The notes beneath the pieces are model-generated. The model searched no databases. It was not told the DNA's origin and saw only the letters and a program-made list of their open reading frames with translations. From Lepidostoma basale (taxonomy: Eukaryota; Arthropoda; Insecta; Trichoptera; Lepidostomatidae): a stretch of 64,000 nucleotides of DNA. Each line of letters starts with the position of its first letter. Position 1 is the stretch's first letter. Of the stretch, positions 1-54,393 are shown one piece after another. Location of the stretch: NCBI GenBank assembly GCA_022606425.2, contig JAHDVF020000437.1:1-64000 (forward strand). Direction: 5' to 3'. A program made the translations under genes and the position numbers.

Positions 1-240
1 AAATCATAACAACACAAAGTATGGCGTATATAGAAGAAATTTTATGATATTTTAAACCTTTTTTTAATATCACTGAGGAAGGACCGGGTTGTCCGAAACA
101 TGTCTGATATTTAATTCATTTCTTTTAAAGTTAGTGTTGTATACAAAGTATATGAAAAAGATAAGAAAACATCTACAACACAAAGTATGACGAACATAGA
201 AGAAATTCTTAAATATTTTGTTTAACCTTAATTTATGTTA
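1..240 (+). repeat. Tandem hammerhead-bearing repeat, one and a half units
   Basis: A segment at 11-60 recurs at 177-229 in the same orientation, giving a period of about 166 bp, and a hammerhead motif lies between the two copies. The second unit lacks a hammerhead. Short head-to-tail units carrying a ribozyme are typical of hammerhead-bearing retroelements (family knowledge). No ORF is present. The related copy near 2660-2790 shares the GTTGTATACAAAGTATA flank. Confidence 0.6.
66..111 (+). ncRNA. Hammerhead ribozyme, ACATGT type (best copy)
   Basis: Stem I pairs AATATCA (66-72) with TGATATT (105-111), 7 bp. The core CTGAGGA (73-79) fits CUGANGA. One extra A (80) precedes stem II, GGAC (81-84) with GTCC (91-94) around loop CGGGTT. 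GAAA (95-98) follows. Stem III is the palindrome ACATGT (98-103), which can give only about 2 bp in cis but 6 bp between two molecules. The predicted cleavage site is GTC after C104. Known dimer-acting hammerheads of Penelope-like elements look like this. The extra base before stem II is unusual, and activity is inferred. Confidence 0.8.
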
Positions 241-395
241 TTTATACATCAATCTAGTTTCACACTGTCGTCTGTTTACTATTATATTTATTTATATTTG
301 TGGTAGCGTGTGATAGGCTTAATTTTATTTTTTATAATATATTTAATTAATATCGCTGTATGTTGCCCTTAGTAAATAAATAAATAAATATGAAT
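214..395 (+). repeat. F element, 3' part
   Basis: This stretch resembles, in reverse, 11526-11700, and its end (CGCTGTATGTTGCCC then AAAT repeats) matches the tail of the complete F copy at 24059-24375. It looks like a 5'-truncated retroposed copy. No coding content is seen. Confidence 0.45.
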
Positions 396-1014
396 AGTCG
401 GAAACATCGGCGTGCTTGAATGATATGATAGACCGTTAAGAAATCAAAATAATTTCTAACGAGAAAATTGTTTATCTATTATTTTTCTATGCCTACTGCT
501 TTAGCGGATCGATGCATCCTAATTAAAATCTGTTGTCTATGATTAAAGTAAATTGAATTTTTGATAATGTTCAACGCTCTGCATATTGCGTTAAAAATTA
601 TCAAAATGATATCATTACTAGGCTAATGCACATTAGGGGATGGTGCTCCTACCCCAGCCCGGCGCACTGCTTGCGGAACAACTGCGCGCTTTTCCCTCGG
701 GACCAAGGGATGCTTATTCGCTTCCCCCCACAAGTCGATTTAAAAAAAGAATTGCTTACATGCACTTAATGTGAAATATAACTAATCCGACGGATTGGCA
801 CAGATTGTTCCATTATTCGAATTCAAATAGGTACCAGGCATGTACTTGTCAGTACAAGGAACTTTCCGAAAAGCTCGCATTACGCAATTCTTCAAATACT
901 ATACTAACTAACGATCACGCAGTTATCTAAAGCGTTAGACATAAAATTCAGATCCACTGTGCTTTCCTGGCATACTTTTCTTGCCTTATAAACATTCATA
1001 TATCATGTCATGTA
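396..1014. other. No gene seen
   Basis: AT-rich sequence without a convincing ORF. A somewhat GC-richer island at about 632-735 stands out in base composition, but I recognise nothing in it. Confidence 0.5.
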
Positions 1015-1122
1015 GAATTCATAAAGCGTTGAGACAAGAGAGGATACCCCAAAACGAAGGCAAAGATGCGGACGCTGAGGATGATAGCAGGAAAGACTCT
1101 TCGAGATAGGGTGAGAAACACG
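1015..1122 (+). mobile_element. alpha-RTE-like C-terminal relic
   Basis: Conceptual translation gives MRTLRMIAGKTLRDRVRN, the segment after the RT domain that also occurs in the 27414-27884 copy. Only about 100 bp survives, and a mariner-type MITE follows directly. Confidence 0.6.
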
Positions 1123-1146
1123 TTTACCCGCAAAATCTTAAATTTT

Positions 1147-1456
1147 TGGTGTTTTTTTAGAGGTTTGGTTTTTAAACTGGCAACATTGTTTCTACAGACT
1201 GTCAATTTGACAATTGACAGTTGATTTGTAGTCAATATATTTTGTCATTTTACTCAGTAGCTCATAAAGGTGTTGAAAATTGGACTTCACGATTGCGCTT
1301 CATTCGAGCTAGCCGTGGCGTTCATATGCCCAAAAATATATTTAAACTATAATGGCATAAAATTATCTAATAAATAAAGCCAATATTATAGACATTAACA
1401 GTTTGTTCATGTGTAATTTTTCATTTTAAATTTGTATACCTCTAAAAAAAAACATA
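1147..1456 (+). mobile_element. Mariner-type MITE, copy 1
   Basis: The ends are inverted copies of GTGTTTTTTTAGAGGT. The interior is shared with 20931-21405 and 38264-38574. No ORF survives here. The family is identified through the 20931 copy, which keeps an IS630/mariner-like helix-turn-helix stretch. Confidence 0.65.
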
Positions 1457-1499
1457 ATATAACAATGTGTATAAGGGTCCAAAATGATCTAAATAGACA

Positions 1500-1614
1500 C
1501 GTCGAAATAACTTGGATGCAGTCTGCACAGGACAGAGTGACATGAAAGCGAATGGAGGAGGCCTTTGTCCAAGAGTAGACGGTAATAGGCTGAGGAAGAA
1601 GAAGAAGAAGAAGA
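1500..1614 (+). mobile_element. RTE-like LINE 3' end with GAA tail
   Basis: Translation resembles the terminal WMQSAQDRVTWKRMEEAF segment, close to the C-terminus at 61967-62285, and the copy ends in (GAAGAA)n. It is heavily 5'-truncated. Confidence 0.55.
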
Positions 1615-1800
1615 TGTCCAGCTCATTATGACATATGAAATAGAAACTAGAGCTGACGTAATTAGGACCAAAAGCTTTTTCGGACTTAGAGTGCTGCGAA
1701 AAAAAGCATGAAGGACTCTCTGAGAAAGGGTTAGAAACTCCGAAATAAGAGAATCTTCTCAGATCGAAGTGAGATGGGACAAGAGACAGCGGTATTAACG
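1615..1800 (+). mobile_element. alpha-RTE relic
   Basis: Decayed reading of the ETRADVIRTKS, MKDSLRKRVRNSEIRES and VRWDKRQRY type, matching the region between RT and C-terminus of alpha-RTE. Several stops and frameshifts are present, and it starts right after the GAA tail of the previous LINE. Confidence 0.5.
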
Positions 1801-2033
1801 TTTGAAATTAGAAAAAATAGATAATTTTAGTAGTAGCGGAAGGCTATATTTCATCACACGCTCAGTTGGTTAAGTAAGTTCATGGTCTGATAGCTTAAAT
1901 ACCAACACTTCCCTAGGGAAAACATTTTCTTTGCTAAAATTATAATCCATTTTTTGCTGAATATATTAATTACCTTTTTCTTACTGCACAATATGTAATG
2001 AAGCATTTTTTTACACTATGAAATTTATTTAAT

Positions 2034-2458
2034 TACGTGTAACATAAATTAAATAAACACAAAAGTCCGGATCGTCCATGTCAACATGTGCAACACCGAA
2101 AAAAACATTATGTGTTATTACATTATGTGCTAAATTAAAATAACAGTGGATTCGTGGAACATAAATTAAATAGTCAATATGTGCACCATCTAAAATGAAC
2201 ATTTTGTGTTAAATTATTTTTATTTTGTTATTTTATTTTATATCATTGTATTTTATATTATTTGTTTAAGATTTATTTTCTGGGTGTTGGACGATCGAAG
2301 TGTGCGCGGGAGATGCCTATTGGTGGCGATGAGGTTCGCAACCAATCACACCGGGCGAAAAGAGAAGGATGGAGTGCCGCAAAAGTGTGACAGTCCATTC
2401 TTTCTGCCTACCCTTTCGGGGAGACGGCGTGATGGTTAGTTAGTTAGTTAGTTAGTTA
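2034..2458 (+). mobile_element. G element, non-autonomous, TTAG-RTE tail
   Basis: An AT-rich 5' part is followed by a GC-richer segment containing GAGGTTCGCAACC, which resembles a pol III B box. The end, with a CCCTTTCGGGG-type hairpin and (GTTA)n, is the same as in TTAG-RTE. Homologous copies lie at 12528-13020, 30185-30632, 38612-38722 and 58165-61045. Sharing a LINE tail suggests it is moved by TTAG-RTE (inference). Confidence 0.65.
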
Positions 2459-2711
2459 TGAAATTTATTGTGGAAATTGAGTCTTCTAAATTTTATCTTC
2501 TTCTTATGTTTCAATCCTGGGAATTGGTTTGTAGCAAAGATCTTCATCGTATCCTGCACTTTGTTCGGTCAAGAAAAAGAAATATAAAAATTTACCTACT
2601 TATTAAAGTACATAATTAAGAGGGAAATACCAAATCAAATAAAAAATAAGCTATGATTTATTTATATTTTTCTTTTTCTTTTTTATATACTTTGTATACA
2701 ACACTAAATTA

Positions 2712-2757
2712 AATATCAGACATGTTTCGCACAACCCGGTCCTTCCTCAGTGATATT
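2712..2757 (-). ncRNA. Hammerhead ribozyme, ACATGT type, second copy
   Basis: On the minus strand the order is the same as at 66-111: stem I AATATCA/TGATATT, core CTGAGGA (2744-2750), extra A, stem II GGAC with GTGC (one substituted base), GAAA, ACATGT and cleavage site GTC. The stem II mismatch may weaken it. The flanks also match copy 1. Confidence 0.75.
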
Positions 2758-2905
2758 ATAAAAATATTTAAAATATTATAAAATTGTTTACAAATATGAT
2801 CAGTTTTGACAGATGTTTATGCTTTTGTTTTAAGAAATATTATGAATAAATTTAAATATTAAAATAATAATTTTAAGTTTTTATTGGAGTTCAATTCAGG
2901 TCAAT

Positions 2906-3234
2906 TTCTCTGACTCCTCACATGGCCGACATTCAATCGGTCCTCGGTTTTCCTCGGTCTTCCTCTATTTCTGGTTCCATTTACATCGTTAACATATAAT
3001 TTTTTTACCATTCTTTCCATATGTCCAAACAATCTTAATGATCCTTTCATTATTTTGTTCATAACACCATCATTCGCACCGCATTCACTTATTATGTTTT
3101 CATTCGACACTCTATCATACACAGAGTATCCACACATTCGTCTAAAAGATCTCATTTCTACTGCATTTATTCTACTTTCATCCTTATTTTGCCAGTGCCA
3201 TGCTTCGCATAATAAGGGTCTCATCTACGCCGAA
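2906..3234 (-). mobile_element. TTAG-RTE C-terminal fragment
   Basis: Minus-strand ORF MRPLLCEAWHWQNKDES... with RRMCGYSVYDRVSNENI and GHMERMVKKLYVNDVNG. This is the region after the RT, ending at RSQRN. Both the RT and the 3' tail are missing. Small deletions occur around the RPRKT segment. Confidence 0.75.
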
Positions 3235-5070: not shown

Positions 5071-5207
5071 TGTTTAAAATGAAATACCCATTCCATCTAT
5101 TTCACTAATGGTTATTAATAACCAATTATGTATTTCTTGATCGCCAATATTATATGCATCTTTTGAAGTTATTAATTTATTGGCAAGATATTTTACAAAT
5201 TAACAAT

Positions 5208-6050
5208 TTTCAATCTTATTATGGACGAAATTATAGAAGAGGTAGCTGGCCTGGGACTAGGTTATAAAATGGGCAGTGAAACTGTGAATGTCATTTGCTA
5301 TGCGGACGATGCCGCATTAATAGCAGAGTCTGAAGATGACCTGCAAAGAATGTTGTACAAATTCCACACAGTATCCCAAAGGCTAAATATGGCTATATCA
5401 GTCAACAAAACAAAAAGTCTCACTATATCTAGGCAACCTGCAAGATGTAAACTGACTGTTGATGATATACCTGTGGAGCAGGTGATGAGTTTCAGGTATT
5501 TGGGAGTGGAGATCTGCAGCCAAAGTGACCTTTATACCGAAGTACGTGAACAAGTCAGTAAAGCCTCTGCCGTGTCAGGATGTCTGAAGAATCTGGTCTG
5601 GAAAAACAAGCACATGCGTATCGACAGCAAGATCAGAATCTACAAAACATGCGTGCGACCCATCATGACGTACGCTGTAGAGACGCGGGCTGACACTGTG
5701 CGAACCAAGGGACTACTAAGAACATCGGAGATGAAGGTCCTAAGATCAATTACTGGAAAAACCCTCCGAGATCGTGTCCGCAACGCAGACATAAGAAAAA
5801 CCTGCGAAATAGAGGATATCGTTCAGTGGAGTAGATCCAGAAGAAGATACTGGAGGGACCATGTAGCCCGAATGGATGGTGACAGACTCGCATATACAGC
5901 CGCCTATGAAATCCCTTCCGGACACCGCCCACCTGGAAGACCGCCTAAGAGATGGAGGGACAGCTGGATCTCATCATCCGACGAGATATGATTTCTGTAT
6001 CACAGATCGTCAGATCTATCAAAATAAGAAGAAGAAGAAGAAGAAGAAGA
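5208..6050 (+). mobile_element. alpha-RTE, 5'-truncated young copy
   Basis: A 256-codon open frame (5221-5991) corresponds to residues 683-938 of the full-length element at 51398-54393. By eye it differs at one residue (E for K early in the segment). It holds the YADD catalytic motif, the FRYLGVE segment and the C-terminal GHRPPGRPPKRW region, then a short 3' UTR and (GAA)n. Homology begins just before the ATG, so the start is a truncation point, not a real initiator. Near-identity implies recent movement. Confidence 0.9.
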
Positions 6051-8616: not shown

Positions 8617-8783
8617 TTAAAAAAATTGATTAGGCATAAGCAAATGTTTTAATAAAGTCGAAGCAAGGCGAATCATGTCATTCCCATAATAAAACATTAC
8701 TTTCGTATATAATATTAAAAATACTTTAAATCACTTGTATACTTAATTAATTCGAATGAAAACTTGTGTTTTATAGAAGTTTT

Positions 8784-8822
8784 ATAATTACATGTTTCGC
8801 CTGTATATGACATTATCCAAAG
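8784..8822 (-). ncRNA. Hammerhead remnant, fused to TTAG-RTE
   Basis: The minus strand keeps GTC...GGC stem II remains, GAAA and ACATGT, but the core is degraded (TTGGATAA). It joins directly to a TTAG-RTE fragment on the + strand, with the same join as at 35832-35985. Confidence 0.4.
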
Positions 8823-9062
8823 ACTAATGTTCGAGAAGAATGGTTAAACTATTGTGTACAAGCAGTGTGAGTGGAAAGAGAAGCCGTGGAAGACCAAGAA
8901 AAGCGGGGCGTGACCAAATTAATCAAATACGAAAAGGCGGCCACATTCGAAGTCGGAAAAATCGTCGAGCATGCATTTTACGATGTATGAATGTAAAGGA
9001 TGCTAGAGAGGGACATGTCAGAACAGAGAAATATAGTGACCCATCCTCTCTGCTTACTTAGT
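8823..9062 (+). mobile_element. TTAG-RTE C-terminal fragment (chimeric 5' join)
   Basis: Reads MVKLLCTSSVSGKRSRGRPRKAGRDQINQIRKGGHIRS.. CMNVKDAREGHVRTEKYSDPSS. This is the LINE C-terminus without the final tail. The 5' boundary at AAGAATGGTT is the same breakpoint as in the 35875 copy. Confidence 0.65.
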
Positions 9063-9074
9063 TCAATTCCCATG

Positions 9075-9260
9075 ATAAGTAATACGAATGAAAACATCTG
9101 TTTTCTAGAAGTTTTATTGTACATTATTTTATGTGAATGACATGTTTCGCCAGTCTAAGGCATTGTCAAGGGACATTTGGAGAGATGAAACATGACATTC
9201 ACAGAAAATATAATAATACTTCTAGAAAACATACGTTTTCATTCGTAATAATTATTTAAT
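9075..9260. repeat. Fold-back hammerhead element
   Basis: A left arm (9080-9140, GAATGAAAACATCTGTTTTCTAG...) reappears inverted at 9190-9255. The left arm carries the motif at 9132-9172; the right arm keeps only a decayed GATGAAACATGACATTCAC. Confidence 0.6.
9132..9172 (-). ncRNA. Hammerhead variant with TTGACAA core
   Basis: Minus strand: core TTGACAA (9163-9169), extra T, stem II GCC/GGC around TTAGACT, GAAA, ACATGT, then C as the cleavage base. Relative to CUGANGA, C3 and G8 are replaced by U and A, a compensatory swap of the C3-G8 tertiary pair. Stem I is not convincing in this copy. Confidence 0.5.
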
Positions 9261-9319
9261 ATGGACTTTTGTATCAATCATTGTTCAAGAAACAATTTAC
9301 CCATAATAAGTATTTAGTA

Positions 9320-9645
9320 TTAATAAGGATATATGATTTTTAGAAGTTTTAGTATAATATATGGATGGGAGTGAAATGTTTCGCCTTGCAAGGGCATCAT
9401 CAAATTAAGTTTAAAAGGTAAAATATATCACATGCATAAAATATATTGTATGTTGTACAATTTCGTATGATAATTTTCTTAATTTTTCTGTTTTTTTTTT
9501 TGCAATGAATTGAAAATAAAATTAAAAATAAAGGTATTTTGAGAGAAAATATTTTTAAAATGCATTTTATAATGCCATACCATGGTGAAAATGTCACTTC
9601 CGTATAATATTATATAACAGACTTCTATAAAACCAATGTTATATC
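9320..9645. repeat. Fold-back hammerhead element
   Basis: The arm at 9325-9410 returns inverted and diverged at 9570-9640 (ACTTCTATAAAACC against the left-arm GATTTTTAGAAGTTTTAG). An AT-rich loop of about 150 bp separates the arms. The right arm keeps GCCATACCATGGTGAAAATGTCA, a degraded hammerhead. Confidence 0.5.
9370..9410 (-). ncRNA. Hammerhead variant, GCC/GGC stem II
   Basis: Minus strand: TTGATGA (9397-9403), extra T, stem II GCC/GGC around CTTGCAA, GAAA and ACATTTC. The stem III palindrome is damaged by one base, so the copy is probably inactive. Confidence 0.45.
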
Positions 9646-13400: not shown

Positions 13401-13583
13401 GATATTTAGCTCCAGATTAAATATTTAAAAAATGACAATATGTCTCTTGAAGTTTTATAATATTTCTAAGAATGGCATATTTTGCCTGACTAATGAATTG
13501 TTAAAATGGAAACTTAGGAAATAATAGAAGAATAAACTTAAGAAATTGAAAATAACTTTGATTAATCCACAAAATATTAAAAA

Positions 13584-13628
13584 AAACACGACATGTTTCG
13601 AAGGATACCTCCATCTTCAGGTGTGAAA
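13584..13628 (-). ncRNA. Hammerhead ribozyme, ACATGT type with CTGAAGA core
   Basis: Minus strand: stem I ACAC/GTGT, core CTGAAGA (13614-13620), extra T, 5-bp stem II GGAGG/CCTTC around TAT with one G-U pair, GAAA, ACATGT and cleavage site GTC. All required parts are present. Confidence 0.7.
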
Positions 13629-13794
13629 ATATAATAAAAACTAAACAAAGAAAGACTAATGTAAAAACGCATTTAAAACTCGATACAATAATTTAAATAA
13701 AATTAACCTTGGCTATTAGTTATAAGTAGTAATAATAAAAGTAATAATGATAATAGTAATAATAATAATTATAATAATAATAATAATAATAACT

Positions 13795-14074: not shown

Positions 14075-14299
14075 AAATAATAATAATATTATAATAATTT
14101 AATTATTGTTTTTCAATTATTGTATCGAGTTTTTAATGCGTTTTTATATTAGCCTTCCTTTGTTTAGTTTTAATTTTATTAATACTTTTTCTAAATATTT
14201 TGTGGATTAAACAAAGATATTTTCAATATCCTAAGTATATTACTATGGAATTCCACAGTATTGATTCCTTAGCGTTCAATAAGTTGGTAATTAAACAAA

Positions 14300-18562: not shown

Positions 18563-19066
18563 GTAATGAAACATGGAAAATACCCCAAATGTACAGATAA
18601 TAAATCCAATTCATTAATCTAAAATCCAGTTTCTACGTTAATGTATCAAAGACCTATATTGATTTGTTACATTCAAAACCTGGTTTCATACATAGGTTTA
18701 GAGTTCTTAAACTTAGTTCTTCAGTTTCTCACATTTATTGATTGTAAACCTAGATACTTGGTGTTTTGACAATAAAAATAATTAAACTCTTTTTCACTGT
18801 GTATAAACCACGTTATTTAAGTTAGTTGCATCGACTGGTTTTACTCTGTAGCGGGTTTCCTCTAGGCTATACAAAAACTATTAGCATGGCCTTTGTGTAT
18901 GACCCTGAGGAATCTCACTACAAACTGAAAGTGAAAAAGTATTTAATTTTATTTCTATCGATTGTATTTTGTATTATCAATAGGGAAGTAATTCTTATAG
19001 TATAATTCCAGTACATTCATTTCTTGTATATTGTTGGATATGTAATGATTTGGATTCTTGTTTCAG

Positions 19067-20248
19067 GTCGGAACGGTTCTGCTCTATGGAGTACCGATAG
19101 TTTCTCTCGTGATAGATTCCCAAGAACGACTTTGCCTCGCTCAAATATCTAACACACTCCTCAAGCAATTCAGCTACAACGAAATTCACAATAGACGCGT
19201 TGCACTCGGGATAACCTGCGTTCAGTGCACTCCGGTGCAGCTGGAGATTCTCAGGAGAGCGGGCGCCATGCCTGTATCATCTAGGAGATGCGGAATGATC
19301 ACTAGAAGAGAAGCAGAGAGACTGTGCAAGTCCTTTTTGGGAGATAACGCTCCACCGAGACTCCCGGATGACTTCGCATTCTCAGTCCACCACGAGTGCG
19401 CCTGGGGATGTAGAGGAGCATTTCTTCCGTCAAGGTATAACTCTTCAAGGGCCAAGTGTATCAAGTGCACATTCTGTGGACTGTTCTTTTCACCGAACAA
19501 GTTTATTTTCCACTCGCACAGAACGGGCCCAGGCGATAAGTACGTGCAACCAGACGCGGCCAATTTCAATTCATGGAGAAGACACATGAAATTAAGCGGG
19601 AATCCTCCAGATGAAATAATTCACGCGTGGGAGGATGTTAAAGCGATGTTCAACGGAGGCACAAGAAAAAGACTAATGGCTTCTTCTACTGGTCCAACAG
19701 AGAATAATTCGAGAGTCACACCTCCAAAGCAAGCCAAGATCAGCAACGAAAGTCCGACTCCTGTACCTTCTGTGTTAAACTTTCCCGTGACGAGTCCTTC
19801 TCCAGCATTAACAGCTCCATCTCCAAGAGTTCCTCCGTTTCCAGAGATAGCGCTACCTCTCTCAAGAAGTCTGGTGATGGATTACGTGTGGCATCAAAGC
19901 CAAGCTGTGAAACAGCACCACCAGTTTCCGTTTTCACCTTATACGCTACCTTGGTTAAAAAGAGGTTCACCTCTGTTCTTTGGACATACAGCGGCAGAAA
20001 ATTCGCTAATCTCCTTTCACAGGAACGCGGCTGCCATACAAGAAGCTAAGCCATCTTATCATCAGTCGGCTTTTAGGCCGGTTCAGGCGAGCGGGCTGAT
20101 AGAAACTGGAACCGGGGTTAGAGGAACGGAAGATCTTACAGACGATGAGACTGTGGATATCGAGACTACAGAAGAAGAGGAACTGAATCTCAGGACAAGG
20201 GCAGAATCTCCGCGGCCGGCATGGAGTTCCCCACAGAGGATAGGCAGT
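19067..20248 (+). CDS. fuss: SKOR/Fussel Smad corepressor, main exon
   Basis: 394 codons between a TTCTTGTTTCAG acceptor and an AGT|GTGAGT donor, both phase 0. The joined product is residues 1-425 so far. Residues 32-124 are the SKI/SNO/DAC domain (LYGVPIVSLVID, NRRVALGITCVQCTPVQLE, AERLCKSFLG). Residues 133-225 are the c-Ski-type Smad4-binding domain (HECAWGCRG, CIKCTFCGLFFSPNKFIFHS) with the Cys/His zinc ligands kept. A Pro/Ser-rich region (240-300) and an acidic stretch (386-404) follow. The family comprises nuclear corepressors of TGF-beta/BMP signalling, mainly neuronal. Nearness to SKOR rather than Ski/Sno is judged from NRRVALGITCVQCTPVQLE. The C-terminus must lie in later exons outside the window or too short to see. 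Reading through the donor adds a low-complexity tail to a stop at 20414 and is unlikely. Confidence 0.93.
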
Positions 20249-20429
20249 GTGAGTACTAAAAATATATTTATTATTTTATATTTCTTCTTTTCGGCACCAC
20301 ATCCAATTGCGGGATTTGAGATTTGTCTCCTCTGTCCCTCTTTTCATTTCCCGCTATCATGTGTCCATGAGTGTTCTTTCCATATAACCCAGTATCTCTT
20401 TTTATATTTTGTTTAGCAATACTTTTTTT

Positions 20430-35831: not shown

Positions 35832-35874
35832 TGTGGGAATAACATGTTTCGCCTTTCTAAGGCATTAACAAAAG
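35832..35874 (-). ncRNA. Hammerhead variant, fused to TTAG-RTE
   Basis: Minus strand: TTGTTAA, T, stem II GCCTT/AAGGC around AGA, GAAA, ACATGT, T. The core departs from CUGANGA at three places. It joins directly to TTAG-RTE at 35875, like 8784-9062. Confidence 0.4.
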
Positions 35875-44400: not shown

Positions 44401-44560
44401 ACTTTATTAATATTATAATCAAATGATTTTACTGAAATCTCTTGATGGGGGTTCATTTTAATTAATTATTAAATAAACTATGTTTTTATTTTAAACTATT
44501 TCCGCCTTAATTTCATTTTTATATACTTTATATACAACACTCACATTTATTAAAAAAATA

Positions 44561-44600
44561 AAATATCAAACATATTTCGGACTAACCAGTCCGTCTACAA
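44561..44600 (-). ncRNA. Hammerhead remnant, left arm
   Basis: Minus strand keeps stem II GGACT/AGTCC around GGTT, GAAA, ATATGT and TTGATATTT, but the core is lost. Confidence 0.45.
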
Positions 44601-44633
44601 ATAGGGTCAGTTTTGACAAATGTCCTTCATCGG

Positions 44634-44680
44634 TATATCACTGATGAAGTACTGGTTAGTCCGAAACATGTTTGATATTT
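44634..44680 (+). ncRNA. Hammerhead ribozyme, right arm
   Basis: Stem I ATATCA/TGATAT, core CTGATGA (44641-44647), extra A, stem II GTACT/AGTCC (one mismatch) around GGTT, GAAA (44663-44666), ACATGT (44666-44671), cleavage base T44672. The left arm shows that stem II was once a perfect GGACT/AGTCC. Confidence 0.7.
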
Positions 44681-44735
44681 AATTTTTATTTAATCTTTTT
44701 AATAAATCTGAGTGTTGTATACAAGTATAAAAAAA

Positions 44736-45577
44736 AGAAACTTTGTTTTATTTAATTATTATTAATTTTTATTGTTTGATTACACATAAATTGCAGCCTG
44801 ACATTAAAAGGCTGACAAGTAACAGGAAAGCGATGACGTCATGGAATTTTAAAATGTAAATTTCTCCGTCAGTATTATAGTTAGGTTGCTTAAAACTTGG
44901 AACATTTATGACAAAAGGTTCACAGATGCCAGTATCGTTCGAGATTTGAGAATAAATTGACTAATATACTATTTTTAGACGCAACCGTACCTGTACTGGG
45001 ATACCAACAGACAGGTTAACAATAATAAAACTAGATTTTTTTTTTCTGTGACGTCACTGTAACAAGCTTCCCCACGTGTGGTGAATAAAGTTTCCAGCCC
45101 TCTTGCCCTTCTGTCCTCCGCGATCTAGTGCGGGCACACCCCTCCCCGAAGGGCCATAACACGGACTTATTGTTTTTATACAATTATTGATGACGTTAAA
45201 TCTGATAAAAAAGGGATGTCGTACGTGCCAGCAATACGGAACACCCGGTAAATCTAAATGAATAGATATTTTGGAAAAGTGACAATTTCAGCTATTAAGC
45301 AGTGTTTTTCTATTACCTGGCAATGCTAGAAAATTTCACGCCACAATTTCCGGTCGAAACTTAAAAACGAATGGAATTAAATTAAATACATATTTTACTT
45401 ACAATATTATATATAAATGAAAACATAAGTTTTCAATTATGTAAATTATTTAATAAGGGGTTTTACATCATTGTTTTATAAGTAATAAACGCTTTATCAT
45501 TTATTTATTTGTTTACTCATTTAATGATCTAACGCGTTAGTTCACCGTTTTTGTATTATTATTATTATTATTATTAG
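44736..45577. other. No gene seen
   Basis: Mixed-composition block; a CRE palindrome TGACGTCA occurs at 45049-45056 with CCCCACGTGTGG just after. Possibly regulatory; no repeat family or ORF recognised. Confidence 0.3.
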
Positions 45578-47985: not shown

Positions 47986-48169
47986 CAATCTTGTGTGAGC
48001 TTTGGTGAAAGTGGCTTAAATTCAATGTTATCATTAAGTAGAATAAATGCAGTAGAAATGAGAATAAACGTAGTAGAAATAAGAGAAAAACTTTTGGCTT
48101 AAACATTGTGAAATTTCATAACGACGATTTTTTATGAAAACTGTTTTTTTTTTACTTTTCAAGAATATT

Positions 48170-48218
48170 TTTCTTGACATGTTTCGAAGGCTTTAAGACT
48201 TCATCATCGGGAGAATGA
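48170..48218 (-). ncRNA. Hammerhead ribozyme, left arm
   Basis: Minus strand: core CCGATGA (48204-48210, one change from CTGATGA), extra T, stem II GAAG/CTTC, GAAA, ACATGT (48177-48182), cleavage site GTC. Stem I TTCT/AGAA-type pairing with one mismatch. Confidence 0.6.
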
Positions 48219-48328
48219 TTCAAACTAATGACAGTTTAATTTTACATAAACTTTAGGCGTTAACACGTTAGAATTTCATAATAATTAATTAATTAATTCA
48301 TAAAAATATCATTACTAACAGTTTATAT

Positions 48329-48370
48329 CGTTCTCCTGATGATGAAGCTTTCGAAACATGTCGAGGAAAA
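48329..48370 (+). ncRNA. Hammerhead ribozyme, right arm
   Basis: Stem I TTCTC/GAGGA with one G-U, core CTGATGA (48336-48342), extra T, short stem II GAA/TTC around GCT, GAAA (48353-48356), ACATGT (48356-48361), cleavage site GTC at C48362. Confidence 0.65.
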
Positions 48371-48911
48371 TGAACTCAGAAGTGGAAAAAACATTGTTTT
48401 AATTCATAAAAAATCGTAGAAATTAGAATAAAAACGGTAGACATCTTGTGTGAGGAATCGTGACAGTGGCTAAGATTCAATAATTTCATTTAGTAGAATA
48501 AAGGCAATAAAAAAGAGAATAATTGCCATAAAAATGCAACAAAAATTGGCATAAATGCAGTAGATATCTGAATAAATGCAGTAGAGATGAGAATCTATGT
48601 AGTAAAAAAGAAAATAAGTGTTCTAAAAATGAGAATAACTGGAGGAAAAATGAGCACAAACGCAGTATAAATGAGAATAAATGCAGTAGAAATGATAAAT
48701 GGAGTATAAATTAGATTAAAAACAGTAAAAGAAATGGTGAGAATAGCTTAAATTCAGTATTTTCATTAAGTAGAATAAATACAGTAGAAATAAAAATAAG
48801 TGCAGAAAAATGAAAATAAATGCAATAGAAATGAAAATAAATGCAGAAGAAATAGCCTTCGATAGTTACGGCTTATTTAAAAAAAAATTCATTATGATTC
48901 AAAATAATTGC

Positions 48912-51397: not shown

Positions 51398-54393
51398 TTC
51401 TTCTTCTTCTTCTTCTTTTGATAGATCTGACGATCTGTGACACAGAAATCATATCTCGTCGGATGATGAGATCCAGCTGTCCCTCCATCTCTTAGGCGGT
51501 CTTCCAGGTGGGCGGTGTCCGGAAGGGATTTCATAGGCGGCTGTATACGCGAGTCTGTCACCATCCATTCGGGCTACATGGTCCCTCCAGTATCTTCTTC
51601 TGGATCTACTCCACTGAACGATATCCTCTATTTCGCAGGTTTTCCTTATGTCTGCGTTGCGGACACGATCTCGGAGGGTTTTTCCAGTAATTGATCTTAG
51701 GACCTTCATCTCCGATGTTCTAAGTAGTCCCTTGGTTCGCACAGTGTCAGCCCGCGTCTCTACAGCGTACGTCATGATGGGTCGCACGCATGTTTTGTAT
51801 ATTCTGATCTTGCTGTCGATACGCATGTGCTTGTTTTTCCAGACCAGATTCTTCAGGCATCCTGACACGGCAGAGGCTTTACTGACTTGTTCACGTACTT
51901 CGGTATAAAGGTCACTTTGGCTGCAGATCTCCACTCCCAAATACCTGAAACTCATCACCTGCTCCACAGGTATATCATCAACAGTCAGTTTACATCTTGC
52001 AGGTTGCCTAGATATAGTGAGACTTTTTGTTTTGTTGACTGATATAGCCATATTTAGCCTTTGGGATACTGTGTGGAATTTGTACAACATTCTTTGCAGG
52101 TCATCTTCAGACTCTGCTATTAATGCGGCATCGTCCGCATAGCAAATGACATTCACAGTTTTACTGCCCATTTTATAACCTAGTCCCAGGCCAGCTACCT
52201 CTTCTATAATTTCGTCCATAATAAGATTGAACAGAAAGGGGCTCAAACTATCTCCCTGTCTTATACCATTGCTTGTAGGAATTTCCCTAGACAGTTCATT
52301 GTCAACCTTAATTTTCGTTTTGCAATTGGTATATAGATCTTGGACAGTCTTTATCAATGTATTGGATATTCCTCCTTCCTGTAATTTTCTTACAATATCT
52401 CTTAACAACACCCTGTCAAATGCCTTAGTCAGATCGACAAAACATATATAGGCTACTTTATTATATTCAATTGCTTTCTCTTTCAGTTGCCTCAGAATGA
52501 AGATTGCATCTGTTGTGGAGCGATTTCGTCGAAAATCCTGCTGTTCTTCCCTATTCGTTATCTTTTGCTCAAGTTTCGTTTTCAGAATACTTGTAAATAG
52601 CTTAAGCATTGTGCATAATAAGGAGATACCTCTGTAGTTCTCTAGGTTTTTCTTTTGCCCTTTCTTAAATACAGGTGTTGTTATACTTATTCTCCATTCC
52701 TGTGGTATAGTTCCAGCGGCCAATATCCTGTTAAATATGTTTAGGATCTCTTTTATACATTCTACGCCAGAGTACTTAATTAATTCATTGGGGATGTTAT
52801 CGATTCCGGGAGCCTTCCTATTTTTCAGCTTCTTAATATGTGTCAGTGTCTCTATTTCACTGAATGTTTCTTCTACAGTAGCTTCAATTGTCGGGTATCC
52901 GTGCCCCGGGTCCATAGAATAGAGTTGTTTGAAGTACCTTTCCCATTCATCAATTGGAATTTTTGTTGTCTGAGTGTATTCATTGATAGGCTTTCTTTGG
53001 TTTTTAAGTAGTTTCCACACTTTTCTTTGGGCACCATGAAGGTCATATTCCATATCTTTTGAGAATTTGGCCCAATATTCTGTTTTTATTTTCTTGATTT
53101 CCGCGTTGACTCTGTTTCTTGTATTCTTATATTTGCGGTATTCTTCTGGTGTGGGGTTGCTCTTATATATTAAGTAGCTTTGTCTTTTTTCTTTGGCAAG
53201 GGTTTTAACTTCTTCAGTAAACCATGGTTTGGGTTTGGTCATTGAATTAATGTTAATATTTCTTTTCCCCAGTGCTTCCGAGGCGGCGTCGTTAATGTTG
53301 GTTTTAATTTTCTCCCATGCCTGTTCCAAAGTATCATGTTCTCCTATGCGATTATCTTTAATTTTCTGTAATATTCGATTTCTGTAAAGATATTTTGTAC
53401 TCTCGTCTTCCAATGATTCAATATTATATTTTTCAATGTATCTAGGGGGCTTTCTTATTTTCTGAGGTCGCTTCATAATCATTTTGCATAACACCAATTG
53501 GTGGTCCGACCCAATGTTTGCCGAACTCAAGGATCGGACATCCAATATTTGTGTAGGGTGTATTGCTCTATTGGTGATAATAAAGTCAATCATTGATTTA
53601 TCGCCCCTTGAGTTCAGGAAAGTGTATTTATGTTGCATCTTATGATTATAATAGGTGTTGGCAATTCTTAGTTCATTGCATGCACAATAGTCGATCAAGC
53701 TCTCTCCGTTTGCATTTATATCGGACTCATTAAACCTTTGCTTGACTCCATCTAAGATGCTGTCACCAACTCTGGCATTAAGATCACCCAGAATAATAGT
53801 CTTCTCTGACTGGGGTGTATTGTCAATAGCATTTTGTAAATTATTATAGAATTCTTCCGTGTCGTCCTTTGGTTTTGTGATATCTGGTGCGTATACGCTA
53901 ATCAGATGTACCTTCTTAGAGTTGAGATCAATCGTCACTTTTAGAATCCTGTCATTAATATATTGGATATTTTCAATGTGGTCCTCGTATCTCTCGTGTA
54001 ATAGGAGGCCAACTCCTGAGTGGGCTCTTTCGGTTTTCTTTTTCCCACTGTATACAAATATGTAATTGGAGAACTTTGATGTTCCGTTCCCTCTCTTTTT
54101 AGTTTCTGACAAGGCACATATATCGATATTGTGGTTATTTAGTTCCATTATGATCTCCTGATCTCTTTTATTCCAAGACACTATGTTCCAGCATGCTATC
54201 CTTGTGGTATTTAATTTCCGAAATCGTTTGTTCCTTTTCAATGCCGAGGTCTTTTTCCAGGTCAATCCGTGTTCCGAGGCTGTGTTTTCTGTACTATGAG
54301 CGCGAATCTTTTTTACCCCGGGCAGGTGGCTAGCCTAACCCAGTGACCCTCCTCCTTTCTCATCCAGGCTTGGGACTGGCAACGGCGGAGTTC
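51398..54393 (-). mobile_element. Full-length alpha-RTE retrotransposon
   Basis: 2996 bp, flanked by AGCAAGTTAGC at 51387-51397 and 54394-54404. A 128-bp 5' UTR precedes one intact ORF. A short 3' UTR and (GAA)n close the element. The 5208 copy is its near twin. It lies in a TTAG-RTE host. Confidence 0.92.
51449..54265 (-). CDS. alpha-RTE endonuclease / reverse transcriptase
   Basis: 938 residues, no internal stop. Residues 20-262 are an apurinic-type endonuclease: N27, E54, Y125, D161/N163, D227 and SDH 253-255 are in place. Residues about 480-760 are the RT: VDLTKAFD (610-617, catalytic D611), GIRQGDSLSPFLFN (667-680), YADD (709-712) and RYLGVE. The C-terminus has a basic RPPGRPPKRW segment, common in RTE-like ORFs. 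The enzyme nicks target DNA and copies its RNA there. Single ORF and length fit RTE-type LINEs (RTE or Proto2). All catalytic residues are kept, so it could be active. The ATG at 54263-54265 is the first one in frame before the domain. Confidence 0.92.
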   Translation of the reverse strand: MTWKKTSALKRNKRFRKLNTTRIACWNIVSWNKRDQEIIMELNNHNIDICALSETKKRGNGTSKFSNYIFVYSGKKKTERAHSGVGLLLHERYEDHIENIQYINDRILKVTIDLNSKKVHLISVYAPDITKPKDDTEEFYNNLQNAIDNTPQSEKTIILGDLNARVGDSILDGVKQRFNESDINANGESLIDYCACNELRIANTYYNHKMQHKYTFLNSRGDKSMIDFIITNRAIHPTQILDVRSLSSANIGSDHQLVLCKMIMKRPQKIRKPPRYIEKYNIESLEDESTKYLYRNRILQKIKDNRIGEHDTLEQAWEKIKTNINDAASEALGKRNININSMTKPKPWFTEEVKTLAKEKRQSYLIYKSNPTPEEYRKYKNTRNRVNAEIKKIKTEYWAKFSKDMEYDLHGAQRKVWKLLKNQRKPINEYTQTTKIPIDEWERYFKQLYSMDPGHGYPTIEATVEETFSEIETLTHIKKLKNRKAPGIDNIPNELIKYSGVECIKEILNIFNRILAAGTIPQEWRISITTPVFKKGQKKNLENYRGISLLCTMLKLFTSILKTKLEQKITNREEQQDFRRNRSTTDAIFILRQLKEKAIEYNKVAYICFVDLTKAFDRVLLRDIVRKLQEGGISNTLIKTVQDLYTNCKTKIKVDNELSREIPTSNGIRQGDSLSPFLFNLIMDEIIEEVAGLGLGYKMGSKTVNVICYADDAALIAESEDDLQRMLYKFHTVSQRLNMAISVNKTKSLTISRQPARCKLTVDDIPVEQVMSFRYLGVEICSQSDLYTEVREQVSKASAVSGCLKNLVWKNKHMRIDSKIRIYKTCVRPIMTYAVETRADTVRTKGLLRTSEMKVLRSITGKTLRDRVRNADIRKTCEIEDIVQWSRSRRRYWRDHVARMDGDRLAYTAAYEIPSGHRPPGRPPKRWRDSWISSSDEI

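Follow-up and report, generated by a model that had tools for sequence, protein, structure and literature searches.

A minimal type I hammerhead motif in a repeat of Lepidostoma basale that very probably belongs to a Penelope-like retrotransposon

Near the start of the Lepidostoma basale contig JAHDVF020000437.1, the 46 nucleotides at positions 66-111 raise the question of whether a hammerhead ribozyme whose stem III can hardly close within one molecule is genuine, and, if so, which element carries it and how it could work. The window referred to throughout is the whole stretch analyzed (64,000 nucleotides), which starts at base 1 of its contig, and the repeat structure around the motif is readable downstream of that base only.

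Anatomy of the motif and its separation from chance

Direct reading confirmed the hammerhead motif at 66-111 (Table 1). All core positions and both helices are intact in this copy, with the 7-bp helix I, the 4-bp helix II and the predicted cleavage site after position 104 that an earlier note on this DNA had claimed. That note's description of a complete hammerhead holds for every part it named but overlooked the unpaired A at position 80. The motif has the CUGANGA...GAAA...UH core and helices I and II of the minimal type I hammerheads of Penelope-like elements (PLEs), with one nucleotide extra after A9, and its helix III is likewise absent or too short in one molecule, with a palindrome able to pair between molecules. 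The surrounding 166-bp tandem unit was upheld in its spacing, as positions 9-53 match 175-219 at 84% over 45 nt, but the second unit is partial, aligning just over 166-235 (77%), and no hammerhead was found after it by direct reading of the window. In tandem copies this junction joins the 3' end of the element to the next unit, giving the 166-bp period.

Table 1 Hammerhead parts and related repeats in the window; family 1 is the repeat family of the motif at 66-111.
Feature	Position	Strand	Remarks	Basis
Minimal type I hammerhead motif, family 1	66..111	+	Predicted cleavage after 104	Direct reading
Helix I, 5' strand AATATCA	66..72	+	Pairs with 105-111	Direct reading, covariation
Core CTGAGGA	73..79	+	C3-A9, N7 = G	Direct reading
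Extra unpaired A	80	+	Between A9 and helix II	Direct reading
Helix II GGAC/GTCC	81-84/91-94	+	Loop CGGGTT (85-90)	Direct reading, covariation
GAA	95-97	+		Direct reading
ACATGT, self-complementary stem III	98..103	+	Full pairing possible only between two molecules	Direct reading
C preceding predicted cut	104	+		Direct reading
Helix I, 3' strand TGATATT	105..111	+		Direct reading
Probable family-1 PLE pseudo-LTR	27..206	+	5' edge uncertain; ends in tail 178-206	61-copy alignment, sharp 3' end
Tail of preceding unit and junction with present unit	9..53	+	Spacing 166	Matches 175-219
Second family-1 copy	2663..2796	-	Hammerhead 2710-2759, one helix II mismatch	
Family-1 relative, hammerhead	44632..44681	+	GTT cleavage triplet, one helix II mismatch	59 bits
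Family-1 copy cut off inside core	44560..44603	-	Without 5' helix I strand	21 bits, E 0.007
Second hammerhead family	13581..13629	-	Helix I ACAC/GTGT, helix II GGAGG/CCTTC	Descriptor, covariance model
Third hammerhead family	48327..48371	+		Descriptor, covariance model
Head-to-head partner of 48327-48371	48167..48219	-	Core CCGATGA	E 0.22, alone not significant

Chance was assessed with a descriptor consisting of the core, a helix II of at least 3 bp starting 0 or 1 nt past the core, GAAA, UH and a helix I of at least 4 bp. Three sites were obtained in the window (73 and 48336 on the plus strand, 13620 on the minus strand) compared to three in 200 dinucleotide shuffles (0.015 per window), and with a helix I of at least 5 bp two window sites remained against none in the 200 shuffles. 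The helix sequences of the three sites differ, while their layout (1-nt spacer plus GAAACATGTC) is common to all. CGAAACATGTC with at most one mismatch occurred at 12 window sites (1.07 expected), with hammerhead-like sequence upstream in six and absent in the other six.

Folding energy and Rfam were silent on the motif. The energy optimum of the 46-nt RNA consists of helix I and helix II, and no unusual stability was found when it was compared to 200 shuffles (z 0.25; 109 at least as stable). With Rfam, the check that the earlier note had proposed, no hammerhead scored above cutoff anywhere in the window, and none was matched at E ≤ 10 in positions 1-3000, the window motif falling short of the gathering cutoff of Hammerhead_1 (RF00163). 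Likewise, no hammerhead was matched at the motif sites of 17 loci searched at E ≤ 10, the only match, below cutoff, lying elsewhere in L064 (21.4 vs 34 bits). Since a helix III, which PLE-type minimal hammerheads lack, is part of the Rfam type I model, this silence was not counted as refuting the motif; annotation by Rfam hammerhead models would miss dimer-type hammerheads, as it did in the window and the 17 loci.

Covariation was analyzed in 39 distinct sequences from 30 family loci and the window, chosen by a regular expression for core and stem III; duplicates were removed, as were sites lacking a stem III of this form. The conserved core of this set thus follows from the choice itself, whereas the helices are unselected. 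Helix cells were paired in 83.1%, compared to 72.1% (sd 1.1) with partners reshuffled and at most 49.1% with the structure slid, and 35 cells were changed on both sides compared to 9.1 in shuffles, a type of count that related copies inflate. A covariance model built from 66-111 and the 38 other sequences gave 66-111 a score of 77.6 bits, a match by construction. The 1-nt spacer after the core was favoured by 43 of 56 distinct hammerhead-like sites from the loci and the window (one without it, 12 undecided). Among 63 distinct ACCGGT-type strings, taken from the 100 ACCGGT-form matches listed, pairing over the four helix II positions was 3.32 when the helix began 1 nt after CTGANGA, compared to 1.05 at 0 nt and 1.65 at 2 nt, and the maximum in 2000 partner reshuffles was 2.70; on the basis of both sets the extra nucleotide is a general trait here. 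It falls within the one or two inserted nucleotides of known hammerhead alignments, as given in the part of PMC10085705 available. Helices, spacer and a palindrome (ACATGT or ACCGGT) are retained in families of differing sequence.

The host assembly (769 Mb, 1572 contigs) contains 6213 forward and 6100 reverse matches to the pattern CTGANGAN{8,16}CGAAACATGTC (ACATGT form, 12,313 in total), compared to 0 + 0 for the reversed pattern, and 170 + 183 matches to the ACCGGT form (reversed control, 1 + 1); both totals (12,313 and 353) are pattern matches, with helix I outside the pattern. No match to the family-1 pattern was found in viral contigs. Taken with the shuffles and the covariation, the reversed patterns refute a chance resemblance of AT-rich DNA to a hammerhead, which the ordinary RNA stability and the Rfam silence would fit and which we regard as vanishingly improbable. 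So large a load of hammerheads is not without precedent, since, according to excerpts of PMC7229834, type I motifs number over 6000 in a coral and reach 126,247 in the axolotl.

Family copies and their link to Penelope-like elements

A search of the genome with window positions 1-260 gave at least 51 matches, a lower bound as 40 of 2438 first-look candidates were scored, and the 29 other family loci fetched match this segment at 83-92%. The motif is conserved in copies elsewhere in the genome. In an alignment of 61 copies, few columns of the repeat are better conserved than those of the motif, an outcome favoured by the anchoring of the copies on it. Within the window, the second family-1 copy (2663-2796) aligns at 79% over 149 columns, and the two relatives at 44560-44603 and 44632-44681 form a head-to-head pair at 44513-44738.

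Other repeats and genes were observed in the window. Positions 13505-13697 (minus strand) and 14111-14266 (plus strand) are inverted copies of one repeat, the second without the ~36 nt that contain the hammerhead. Five CGAAACATGT-like sites following AAGG- or CTGG-like strings (8669-9383 and 35841-35851) are perhaps a further, older hammerhead family. A frame at 19049-20413 (plus strand) with SKI/SNO Dachshund-homology (1.5e-36) and SMAD4-binding (5.2e-24) domains is an exon of a SKI-family gene, and a 961-aa frame with endonuclease and reverse transcriptase domains at 51449-54334 (minus strand) is an intact-looking LINE, of which a partial copy lies at 5176-5991 (plus strand).

The motif at 66-111 is very probably the hammerhead of a Penelope-like retrotransposon, here in a solo or 5'-truncated pseudo-LTR, because the repeat directly follows the end of a GIY-YIG endonuclease in 4 of 30 family-1 loci (fetched with flanks of ~1.5 kb). 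In these four (L017, L011, L029 and L002), the C-terminus of a PLE endonuclease, 41-54% identical to a PLE endonuclease frame of the same genome, stands on the same strand directly before the repeat. The stop codon precedes the core by 181 nt in L017, 174 nt in L011 and 178 nt in L029. The motif after the endonuclease end is degenerate in L029, and in L002 the repeat is broken before the motif. Searches (tblastn) with the PLE frames of the genome gave matches in five of the 30 loci, the fifth (L006) being distant and on the other strand, and no PLE frame was found within the window. The assignment of family 1 to PLEs, including its pseudo-LTR location, therefore rests on the four junctions, which concern the family and not the window copy.

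The search upstream of L017 gave no reverse transcriptase of family 1, nor did the 2959 bases upstream in L073, and an autonomous family-1 PLE encoding one was not encountered. A related element of the host genome, PLE-A, carries reverse transcriptase and endonuclease domains in one 758-aa frame (L062; RVT_1 1.4e-13, GIY-YIG 6.6e-5). At E ≤ 0.001, 506 of 7992 scored candidates were related to residues 250-758 of this frame; six of the 120 listed carry an organism name, and all six are insects. A genome search for GIY-YIG domains gave at least 62 matches (541 candidates, 150 scored), and a full minimal hammerhead was present in the flanks of 4 of 30 such loci fetched. In two of those four (L038 and L042) the frame is that of PLE-A and the family-1 motif merely a neighbour. 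A hammerhead of the family at window 13581-13629 lies just downstream of the GIY-YIG frame in L064, and another hammerhead family lies beside the frame of L067, which is just under the Pfam cutoff (21.5 vs 22.6 bits). Two of these 30 loci, L031 and L033 (contigs C102 and C729), have a bacterial gene layout and frames that we take to be uvrC-like; they are probably bacterial associates of the host or contamination.

A common block was aligned in 61 copies from 30 loci. Its 3' boundary, just after ...ACAACACAAAGTATGGCGAACATAGAAGAAAT, is sharp, and the flanks beyond it are unrelated and AT-rich. In the proposed mechanism, a PLE reverse transcriptase would start at this fixed 3' end (...GAAGAAAT), copy the repeat and insert it into AT-rich DNA. 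Near this end lies an 8-bp complement, GTGTTGTA/TACAACAC, whose variants are mostly one-sided among the 61 copies; it recalls, as a lead only, the AC-rich stem-loop at which reverse transcription of the PLE PAc starts according to the text available from PMC11167929. The tail also contains an ATG at window position 187, which opens MANIEE 82 nt after the predicted cleavage site and could be an ORF start; the ORF of a bdelloid PLE has its first 12 codons inside the pseudo-LTR (PMC3846280, in part). At L011 (~1830-2110, minus strand), a tail with the start codon is joined to the endonuclease end between two pseudo-LTRs, a very short PLE that looks like an internal deletion.

Neighbouring copies of the motif were mostly found head-to-head. 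Among 100 listed of the 12,313 ACATGT-form matches, all 11 pairs within 700 bp were in this orientation (minus-then-plus), and pairs within 1500 bp comprised 12 head-to-head, two minus-minus and one plus-plus. Of the 353 ACCGGT-form matches, 100 were listed; among these, all six pairs within 700 bp were head-to-head, as were 11 of the 12 pairs within 3500 bp. The family-1 copies at 27-175 and 2663-2796 of the window are an exception, being tail-to-tail and 2.5 kb apart, and L016 has tandem hammerheads at 1637 and 1809 (minus strand). Transcription through a head-to-head pair would yield RNA with a single hammerhead beside an antisense copy, not with two hammerheads. Inverted, head-to-head pseudo-LTRs with palindromic junctions are the commonest form of bdelloid PLEs in the portion of PMC3846280 seen, and a DNA-transposon reading of the inverted pairs was dropped for this reason.

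A retrozyme ranks second to the PLE hammerhead and is very unlikely. Retrozymes are non-autonomous non-LTR elements built from 150-400 bp units in tandem, and the small RNA circles set free by their hammerheads serve as templates for reverse transcription. The 166-bp, GC-poor unit with its tandem junction is of fitting size, metazoan retrozymes are tandem repeats of ~170-400 nt that occur in insects as well (PMC7229834, partial text), and no linked endonuclease end was present within the flanks of 26 of the 30 family loci. Conversely, a stable helix III is part of the canonical hammerheads of invertebrate retrozymes (PMC7761336, as far as available) and is absent here, the repeat is linked to PLE endonuclease ends in the other four loci, and the close pairs are head-to-head as counted above.

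Dimerisation and integrity of the hammerheads

The earlier note had proposed that the motif acts as a dimer. Both ACATGT and ACCGGT are self-complementary, neither closes usefully on itself, and they are found in families with different helices I and II; judged from sequence, such a pattern would be expected if identical RNAs paired with each other. Together with the helix covariation, the recurring palindrome supports the dimer idea. Because the same six bases provide both sides of helix III, the topology implies that helix I must also form between the partners. A transcript through the repeat would fold helices I and II. Pairing via the 6-nt palindrome would follow, either between two such transcripts or between two copies within a multimer, with an exchange of helix I strands. 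Cleavage by the resulting composite cores would fall after position 104 in each partner and shorten PLE read-through RNA to unit length. The nested two-strand dimer was calculated at -19.4 kcal/mol compared to 2 x -7.7 for the monomers; since the best dimer fold (-22.7) is another structure, calculated energy does not prove the dimer.

The satellite-like tandem-unit context of the earlier note was not borne out, as the unit is very probably a PLE pseudo-LTR and this copy is without a tandem hammerhead partner inside the window. Its interpretation is hence partly supported, with the hammerhead and the dimer idea upheld and the context replaced. Tandem hammerheads in one element, a further property of PLE minimal type I hammerheads, were not found at 66-111 within the window; this is taken here as a property of full elements rather than solo repeats. 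The excerpt of PMC6466107 at hand counts PLEs among RNAs with double-hammerhead structures and describes the tandem arrangement as needed in eukaryotes, a requirement of which the 66-111 copy falls short. Sites lying close together among those listed for the genome are head-to-head rather than tandem, so cleavage of the 66-111 copy would probably depend on a second molecule acting in trans. The tandem pair of L016 (1590-1820, minus strand) consists of a unit of a helix I-lacking subfamily followed by an intact unit, and the two might form a mixed dimer with one working site if the 5' strand of the former paired with the 3' strand of the latter. L003 and L008 have the same unit order, without an intact second motif among the motifs listed.

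Hammerhead integrity differed between families. When sites were sorted by helix II string, helix I was at least 7 bp in 21 of 28 sites of the 66-111 subfamily and at most 2 bp in 8 of 9 sampled sites of the GGACTG-type subfamily. Of 36 PLE-A pseudo-LTRs sampled (L036-L071, e.g., L062 at 5192), 30 read CTGTCGA (A6 to U) and none reads CTGACGA, and despite this change helix II and the ACCGGT palindrome are retained; CTGACGA with the PLE-A helix II and stem III string was present in 6 of the 100 listed ACCGGT-form matches. The PLE-A protein copies sampled are mostly 89-98% identical. Since a sister subfamily is short of helix I and the PLE-A core is changed, hammerhead activity may be without strong selection. 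For PAc, hammerhead mutants had no effect on insertion in vitro and cleavage needed protein (PMC11167929, text seen in part), and with these mutants, the helix I loss and the PLE-A core change a role for cleavage in spreading is unproven.

The 66-111 copy may well be a decaying relic, having no intact same-strand partner nearby in the window. That it is dead altogether, a PLE ribozyme that was active in the past and is now only carried along in copying, is about evenly balanced and compatible with the PLE explanation. The divergence of the copies (83-92% to window 1-260 in the 29 other loci), the missing tandem partner, the mostly lost helix I of the sister subfamily and the CTGTCGA of PLE-A point to such a relic; the intact core positions and helices of 66-111 argue against it, as do the well-conserved motif columns, with the reservation on anchoring given above. 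It is rather unlikely that the motif is kept mainly as a palindromic element for RNA pairing or recognition by the reverse transcriptase rather than for self-cleavage, a reading suggested by PLE-A, which keeps palindrome and helix II with a changed core, and by the subfamily mostly without helix I. Were cleavage not needed, the motif would be conserved because the template RNA dimerises for insertion, and the preference for head-to-head pairs might be explained in the same way.

The 12,313 pattern matches of one form make up a large, easily counted set of dimer-type hammerheads in a single genome. As the families differ in helices, palindrome and integrity, the purpose of PLE hammerheads can be asked by comparison, i.e., whether a broken core or a missing helix I makes a family amplify less than an intact one.

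Comparison with known systems

Minimal type I hammerheads of PLEs have reportedly been described by Cervera and De la Pena (2014) and by Lunse, Weinberg and Breaker (2017). They are reviewed in PMC7761336, PMC6155905 and PMC6466107, and, in the text of these reviews available, they share with the 66-111 kind the core, helices I and II, the missing helix III, the palindrome, the pseudo-LTR location and thousands of dispersed copies. The host and the sequence family differ here, and close pairs among the listed sites are head-to-head, not tandem. No paper combining hammerhead, Lepidoptera and Penelope was found among those searched. The kind to which 66-111 belongs is already described, and what is new is a member in this host rather than a new machine.

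The metazoan retrozymes of PMC7229834, as far as its text was available, have in common with 66-111 a type I hammerhead, a short GC-poor unit and a partial tandem; in contrast, family 1 is without helix III and is linked to a PLE endonuclease in some copies. Bdelloid Penelope elements share the inverted head-to-head pseudo-LTRs with palindromic junctions, and hammerheads go unmentioned in the main text of PMC3846280 (0 occurrences). PAc, a Poseidon element of Anolis, has in common a hammerhead at the pseudo-LTR, a fixed 3' tail, AT-rich targets and a reverse transcriptase with GIY-YIG endonuclease. According to the sections of PMC11167929 available, cleavage of PAc needed protein and its ORF starts at helix II of the hammerhead, whereas in family 1 the tail ATG lies past the predicted cleavage site.
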